Below, piece by piece: positions 9,489 through 33,671 of a stretch of DNA of 40,697 nucleotides. Position numbers and translations under genes: made by a program. Numbering within the stretch: the first letter of the stretch is position 1; every line of letters begins with the position of its first letter. The notes beneath the pieces were generated by a model that saw only the letters and a list, made by a program, of their open reading frames with translations, made no database searches and was not told the origin of the DNA. Where the stretch lies: contig SVOU01000002.1 in the NCBI GenBank assembly GCA_015066215.1, forward strand, positions 1-40,697. The letters are read 5' to 3'. The DNA is from Oscillospiraceae bacterium. GTDB lineage: Bacteria > Bacillota > Clostridia > Oscillospirales > Acutalibacteraceae.

Positions 9489-9517
9489 TTGTAGGGGACG
9501 GCGTCCTCGACGTCCCG
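9489..9517 (+). repeat. REP-like palindrome, copy A
   Basis: TTGTAGGGGACGGCGTCCTCGACGTCCCG: GTAG head, 6-bp stem GGGACG/CGTCCC, 10-nt loop. Same family as copies at 32588, 32772, 33551 and 33638. Confidence 0.85.
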
Positions 9518-32445: not shown

Positions 32446-32988
32446 ATGGAAAATGATTTTCCAAGAAGGAAAGCCACGCGACTAAAAGATTTCGATTACA
32501 GTACCACCGGTGCCTATTTCGTGACTGTTTGCACAACGAACAGGCGTTGCCTGCTATCCAAAATTATCGCACCCACTAACGGTAGCATTGTAGGGGACGG
32601 CGCCCTCGACGTCCCGCAGGTAAAACTGACAGAGATCGGACGGATTGCCGAGAAGCATTTGTTGGCAAGTGAGCGCATACAAGGTGTCAGAATTGACCGA
32701 TACGTGATTATGCCAAACCACATACACGCCATCATAGCCATAAAAGCGGACGAGAATGATGAGCAGGTGCACGGGACGTCGAGGGCGCCGTCCCCTACAA
32801 ACAAACTGTTACCACACATCGTGGCCACTTTTAAGCGGTTCTGCCACAAGGAAATCGGACAGGTTGTTTTCCAGCGTTCGTTCCACGACCACGTCATCCG
32901 CGATTATGCAGATTATGATGAAATCGCCAAATATATCGCAGAAAACCCTATCCGCTGGCGGCTTGATACGCTGTATGCGGCAGAATAA
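32446..32988 (+). CDS. REP-associated tyrosine transposase (RAYT; Y1_Tnp/IS200-like)
   Basis: RRKATRLKDFDYSTTGAYFVTVCTTNRRCLL; HUH motif in YVIMPNHIHAIIAI; putative catalytic Tyr in DEIAKYIAENPIRWRLD; FQRSFHDHVIRDYADYDEI. Confidence 0.9.
   Translation: MENDFPRRKATRLKDFDYSTTGAYFVTVCTTNRRCLLSKIIAPTNGSIVGDGALDVPQVKLTEIGRIAEKHLLASERIQGVRIDRYVIMPNHIHAIIAIKADENDEQVHGTSRAPSPTNKLLPHIVATFKRFCHKEIGQVVFQRSFHDHVIRDYADYDEIAKYIAENPIRWRLDTLYAAE
32588..32616 (+). repeat. REP-like palindrome, copy B, inside the RAYT CDS
   Basis: TTGTAGGGGACGGCGCCCTCGACGTCCCG, identical to the reverse complement of copy C. Confidence 0.9.
32772..32800 (-). repeat. REP-like palindrome, copy C, inside the RAYT CDS, opposite orientation
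   Basis: CGGGACGTCGAGGGCGCCGTCCCCTACAA; reverse complement equals copy B over all 29 nt. Confidence 0.9.
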
Positions 32989-33430: not shown

Positions 33431-33482
33431 CTTTGAAATGGCAAAAGCAAGAAGCTACCCGCAAATGCTGCGCATTCTTTAC

Positions 33483-33523
33483 GCGAGGTGGCTTAAGCCA
33501 CAGCGAGACCGTCGCCCCTACAA
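33483..33523 (-). repeat. REP-like element, divergent copy D
   Basis: Reverse complement TTGTAGGGGCGACGGTCTCGCTGTGGCTTAAGCCACCTCGC; GTAG head, contains perfect 14-bp palindrome GTGGCTTAAGCCAC (33488-33501). Confidence 0.65.
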
Positions 33524-33550
33524 ATCTCGATTTTCACCTGATTGCGTGCA

Positions 33551-33605
33551 TTGTAGGGGACGGCGCACCCCAAGGGCACTTCCTTCGGGCGTCCTCGACG
33601 TCCCG
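33551..33605 (+). repeat. REP-like element, copy E with 26-bp loop insertion
   Basis: TTGTAGGGGACGGCG[CACCCCAAGGGCACTTCCTTCGGGCG]TCCTCGACGTCCCG. Confidence 0.8.
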
Positions 33606-33637
33606 CCCCAAAACAGCACAACCTACAAATCGTGCAT

Positions 33638-33666
33638 TTGTAGGGACCGGCGTCCTCGACGGTCCG
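33638..33666 (+). repeat. REP-like palindrome, copy F with compensatory stem changes
   Basis: TTGTAGGGACCGGCGTCCTCGACGGTCCG; stem GGACCG-type instead of GGGACG-type, both fully paired. Confidence 0.85.
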
Positions 33667-33671
33667 CACAT

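Follow-up and report, generated by a model that had tools for sequence, protein, structure and literature searches.

An inverted pair of REP hairpins, probably cognate to the enzyme, within the coding sequence of a RAYT gene and many of its relatives

The window, i.e. the whole stretch of 40,697 nucleotides analysed here, corresponds to contig C91 in a draft assembly of 1.5 Mb and 134 contigs from an Oscillospiraceae bacterium. Its central feature is a gene for a REP-associated tyrosine transposase (RAYT) that contains two REP-like segments, called arms below, in its reading frame. The features used in the following are:

32446..32988, forward strand: RAYT gene, an uninterrupted reading frame from ATG to TAA encoding 180 amino acids.
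32588..32616, forward strand: arm 1, a GTAG-REP at site 1, between β1 and αA, encoding residues 48-57.
32719..32727, forward strand: codons of the HUH motif (H92-I-H94), between both arms, invariant in alignments A1 and A2.
32772..32800, reverse strand: arm 2, an inverted copy of the REP of arm 1, lying at site 2, after the HUH strand and before the following helix, and encoding residues 109-119.
32932..32934, forward strand: codon for Y163, presumably the catalytic tyrosine, within YIAENP (the YI..NP motif of the subclass), invariant in A2 and outside the bracketed segment.
9489..9517, forward strand: dispersed intergenic REP of the arm class, identical to the arms at 28 of 29 positions.
33638..33666, forward strand: related dispersed REP downstream of the RAYT gene.

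A 4'-phosphopantetheinyl transferase gene (PF01648, 31833-32432) stops 13 nt ahead of the RAYT start codon, so co-transcription of both genes is possible.

An earlier note, made from the letters of the window, had called the protein a RAYT. Our data agree with this, since the protein combines an HUH motif with a single tyrosine in YI..NP, adopts the predicted fold of E. coli TnpAREP (4er8) and is accompanied by a REP family in its genome. Residues H92, H94, Y163 and N167 showed no variation across 70 aligned sequences. The best fold match in the PDB for the AlphaFold2 model was 4er8 (E 3.3e-07, TM 0.54-0.58), and the family profile found the same entry at 5e-14. The NCBIfam model NF047646 matched all 70 aligned relatives (E of at most 0.001) and the window protein with 62 bits (E 5.6e-17), the cut-off of the model being 80; PF01797 scored 14.9 bits on this protein, too weak for an assignment by itself. 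The AlphaFold2 model had a mean pLDDT of 82.7, and values below 50 occurred solely at residues 47-49 and 109-118, in or beside the REP-encoded segments.

The geometry of the arms was as first described. They are exact reverse complements over 29 nt, lie 155 nt apart within the reading frame with their GTAG ends pointing outward, and encode the in-frame peptides SIVGDGALDVPQ (arm 1) and VHGTSRAPSPTNK (arm 2). When mismatches were allowed, the match between the arms reached 40 nt at 88%. As DNA, arm 1 (TTGTAGGGGACGGCGCCCTCGACGTCCCG) folds into its own hairpin of 6 bp plus 2 bp with -9.7 kcal/mol, and arm 2 into one of -10 kcal/mol. Chance was ruled out as an origin of the pair: the local inverted-repeat score was 58, the best of 100 shuffles reaching 22, and the REP pattern matched the window four times versus 0.00 expected. 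An assembly error, a concern raised together with the first description, was ruled out as well, given that the layout recurs in independent assemblies; it is present in the complete isolate genome of Chakrabartyella piscis (L074) and in the isolate drafts L105, L114 and L132. The possibility that both segments are surface loops is in line with the model, where both are predicted to be disordered and have its lowest confidence. The gene would thus hold a putatively cognate REP pair in two flexible loops at the protein surface.

In-frame REPs inside tnpAREP genes are known since 2018 for subclass 2.4 of TnpAY1 (RAYT group 4 of Bertels), as set out in the main text of Quentin et al. (PMC6006769). 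The features that this text gives for the subclass, namely the NHIH and YI..NP motifs, a variable stretch between β3 and αC, a long REP whose stem has three G-C pairs at its base and an in-frame REP between HuH and Y, recur here. The window protein fits subclass 2.4 in most features tested. It has NHIH for NH[IFV]H and the variable insertion between β3 and αC with an in-frame REP, which is arm 2; at the place of YIxNNP it reads YIAENP (alignment consensus YIxxNP), and the WQ motif is absent, with FQ in its place in the window protein and WQ in the alignment consensus. Unlike subclass 2.4 as described, the window RAYT has a second REP ahead of the HUH motif, in the β1-αA loop, and both REPs form an inverted pair of a single class. 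Table 1 of PMC6006769 does not list a β1-αA insertion for 2.4, and its main text does not describe an inverted pair, co-variation or compensation. A later report of a two-site REP pair was not found in the literature searched. Measured against these parts of the 2018 paper, the pair at two fixed sites and its co-variation appear to be new.

The arrangement is general among related RAYTs and not peculiar to the genome of the window. We surveyed 99 genomes, the window's own and relatives in its family and order, together with a scan of a species-level genome collection, which together yielded 101 RAYT genes in which the HUH motif could be recognised. The segment before the HUH codons was scored against the reverse complement of the segment after them, with a threshold of at least 30. 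An inverted REP pair was found by this score in 75 of the 101 genes, compared to 6.8% of mismatched gene pairs; this set was recruited by similarity to the window RAYT, and the 75% is not a frequency among RAYTs at large. The pair flanks the catalytic HUH codons at two fixed places, in fixed orientation and mostly in one codon phase, among genes sharing 35-60% protein identity. The median distance is 99 nt from the end of arm 1 to the HUH motif and 26 nt from there to the start of arm 2. At site 1, 71 of 74 genes have GTAG in codon phase 0, where it reads V-G; at site 2, CTAC lies in phase 2 (P-T) in 59 genes and in phase 1 in 14. Counted without requiring a pair, GTAGGG hairpins were forward in 74 genes and reverse in two at site 1, and reverse in 79 and forward in one at site 2. 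All 66 collection loci picked for alignment were free of stops. The constancy of site, phase and orientation speaks against recent random insertion into RAYT genes. Loop length did not differ between genes with and without a hairpin, which is neutral with respect to insertion. Few branches of the tree of the 101 RAYTs were well supported, for which reason gains and losses of arms cannot be counted reliably. A phylum-wide search for the family returned mostly longer transposases; six of 30 loci could be scored, none of these six had arms, and three of them (160-170 aa) had flanking REPs only.

What is conserved in the arms is the DNA of the individual hairpins. Within one gene, arm identity was 0.925 over the 19 nt beyond the anchor, versus 0.765 for the same site in nearest-neighbour genes, and the two arms agreed at 23.6 of 25 positions, versus 14.3 of 25 after random re-pairing. 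In thirteen pairs of relatives, chosen because they share a REP class, the arms were identical at 24-25 of 25 positions, while synonymous sites, close to saturation, differed by 0.39-0.89. The arm DNA is therefore held much more tightly than the flanking codons, a comparison that the earlier note had proposed. In the same pairs dN/dS was 0.05-0.21 where dS could be estimated, and the constraint on arm DNA comes on top of purifying selection on the RAYT protein. Part of the sharing of arm sequence among close relatives is plain inheritance.

The earlier note had left it open whether the arms pair with one another in the mRNA, as a 29-bp duplex, or fold as two separate hairpins. The arm-to-arm duplex does fold strongly in silico (z -8.2). 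However, the genes L011, L077, L094, L100 and L124 keep the hairpins and lose the perfect duplex. Where the two arms of a gene are unlike, 16 differences in the stems were compensated within the arm and 2 were not, so that selection or replacement acts on each REP hairpin. On these grounds the duplex was rejected as the selected form in favor of two separate hairpins.

The arms also match REPs dispersed in the same genome, which upholds the view that they represent REPs of this RAYT. The genome of the window holds about six dispersed copies of the arm class and about eight of the class of its second RAYT; the arms of these two RAYTs are unlike (L010, GGGGACGGCGCCC...; L028, GGGCGCGACGTCC...), and each has its own dispersed copies. 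A search of nine genomes for twelve arm classes gave 130 matches, arms included, of which 98 were to a class present in the RAYT of the genome concerned. In G095 and G065, tens of copies are exact or near-exact to a RAYT arm. Within 1.5-5 kb to either side of the genes there were on average 0.37 REPs per locus matching the own arm, versus 0.025 for arms of other genes. Arm identity correlated with identity of the RAYT core (Mantel rho 0.23), a value not reached in any of 1000 permutations. In these comparisons, the arms track the RAYT lineage rather than the host genome. Dispersed copies were few in G050, G014 and G084, where the arms are intact, and seeding can therefore be at best weak there.

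Where the internal pair is missing, the cognate REP often lies next to the gene, oriented in the same sense. Flanking REP hairpins accompanied 42% of the arm-bearing genes versus 81% of the others (Fisher p 0.002). Seven loci (L018, L019, L091, L101, L107, L121 and L145) have a forward REP upstream and a reverse REP at site 2, L116 and L140 a forward REP upstream and a reverse one downstream, and L076 and L090 an inverted pair downstream. L116, from a member of the Coriobacteriia, lacks the internal hairpins, and its flanking REPs equal arm 2 of its relative L013 over 26 nt, the two proteins being 46.7% identical. The common element would therefore be a cognate REP pair at the locus and not its exact address. 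Several genes of the set have no pair at all; at L119 and L125, for instance, a clear REP pair was found neither in nor beside the gene. For the window RAYT itself, TTGTAGGG does not occur upstream between 9489 and 32588, and the nearest downstream occurrences, at 33516, 33551 and 33638, lie more than 500 nt past its stop codon.

We consider it probable that the arms are the RAYT's own cognate REPs, carried as an inverted, GTAG-outward pair in tolerant loops that bracket the HUH codons. REP hairpins are bound and cleaved as single-stranded DNA by E. coli TnpAREP (PMC8266576, PMC3733652). By analogy, the arms may be DNA-level recognition hairpins of this HUH/Tyr nuclease. Enzyme and substrate would then form a single unit at the locus, in effect a REPtron whose REPs lie inside the gene. 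Kept with the gene, the arms would let enzyme and substrate travel and change together. As the likeliest consequence, the locus would keep and seed the matching REP family, and whenever the specificity of the enzyme shifted, the built-in REPs would change after it. A more far-reaching version, which we offer tentatively and with some doubt, is that a matched inverted pair of cognate REPs at its own locus is an obligatory cis-acting DNA element in this RAYT clade. Usually lying within the coding sequence, it would make the gene encode enzyme and substrate at once, and the locus would serve as the template from which the REP family is founded and founded anew, also following horizontal transfer.

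Alternatively, the arms could be passive landing pads without a role at the RAYT locus, REPs that were inserted long ago into tolerant loops and have been repeatedly overwritten by dispersed copies, through RAYT-mediated replacement or gene conversion. In-frame insertion of REPs is known from many unrelated genes of other bacteria (PMC3733652). Unlike arms within one gene can each match dispersed copies, as in G084 and G050, and site 2 of a broken paralogue (L038) was replaced by a longer REP-derived stretch. We nevertheless regard passive landing as unlikely, since sites, orientation and mostly phase are constant across the diverged genes of the survey, the arms go with the RAYT and not with the host genome, and the hairpins are intact in those three genomes where dispersed copies are few.

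Autoregulation, suggested already in the earlier note, would have the RAYT bind the REPs of its own gene or mRNA, limiting its expression or cutting its own gene, and the arms would have to follow the specificity of the enzyme. This would account for a pair that follows the enzyme and sits at its locus, be it in the gene or next to it, and the strong fold of the mRNA segment fits as well. The form acting on mRNA is disfavoured, however, by pairs that sit outside the reading frame. The few wobble pairs, too, are G·T when read on the REP-sense strand, and this holds at site 2 as well, although the mRNA there corresponds to the other strand; with small numbers and a partial bias from the GTAGGG anchor, this is no more than suggestive. 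All in all we judge autoregulation to be quite improbable. A constraint on the loop peptides, with the DNA palindrome as by-product or chance, is rejected as very improbable: the reading frame does recur, as do a few residues, V-G at the first site and P-T at the second, and loops are of similar length with and without a REP, but from one REP class to another the palindrome persists through wide changes in the encoded residues, and conservation of the arm DNA goes far beyond that of synonymous sites elsewhere, even where these are saturated. Homologs with the same loop peptides and freely diverged DNA had been named beforehand as the case that would point to such a constraint; the opposite was found.

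On the preferred reading of the arms as cognate REPs, the locus shares characteristics with several known systems and differs from each. Like the REPtrons of E. coli and Pseudomonas (PMC3733652, PMC3116915), it has cognate REPs at the RAYT locus, of a class specific to each RAYT. Unlike there, the pair lies inside the coding sequence and flanking REPs are rarer in the presence of arms; the window RAYT is not directly flanked by REPs on both sides. As in a REPIN, an inverted REP doublet (PMC3116915), two REPs face each other with GTAG outward, an arrangement also seen in dispersed doublets of G013, whereas the spacer of the arms consists of 155 nt of coding sequence. The 213-bp unit of the pair had no other copy in the genome of the window, where matches were of REP size only, so that REPIN-like dispersal was not observed. 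Rickettsia palindromic elements and other intragenic REPs (PMC3733652) are likewise palindromic repeats in frame in protein genes; they occupy varied sites in many unrelated genes, and the arms two fixed sites in the transposase gene of the repeat itself. The IS200/IS605 family (IS608, ISDra2) has an HUH/Tyr enzyme of the same fold and two recognition hairpins at the locus, as predicted here, but in the RAYT the hairpins lie within the gene, so that a mobile copy of the entire gene could not have them as its ends. Whole-gene mobility of the RAYT was not seen.

Between genes, the hairpins vary in sequence along with the enzyme, so the likely target of a RAYT may be readable from its gene. Should the arms indeed be the cognate substrate, every gene of this kind would spell out its own target, and there would be dozens of natural enzyme/substrate pairs (75 in our sample) from which the recognition code could be read and which could be tested directly. 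This bears on the questions of what keeps a REP family matched to its RAYT and of how RAYTs choose their REPs. It also provides a clear example of a single DNA segment maintained in two capacities at once, as a loop of the protein and as a hairpin of the DNA.

Some further observations concern the REPs and their relatives. The REP at 9489-9517 sits directly after an apparent intrinsic terminator. Downstream of the window RAYT, 33480-33670 contains a cluster of REP remnants: a reverse REP ending at 33523, a REP at 33551 that apparently continues at about 33588 after a nested palindromic stretch, and the REP at 33638-33666. L038 (G000:C8:2399-2943) is a damaged copy of L028, the second RAYT of the window's genome, and the longer REP-derived stretch that replaces its site 2 breaks the frame. 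The RAYT region L020 has an extra GTAG-REP-like insert of another class ahead of arm 1. In G097 (L153, L154), arrays alternate REPs of several unlike classes, some of which match two RAYTs of that genome. In G095 (L161-L163), a dispersed unit is about 107 nt long, contains two unlike REPs in the same orientation with a conserved spacer, and is repeated many times.
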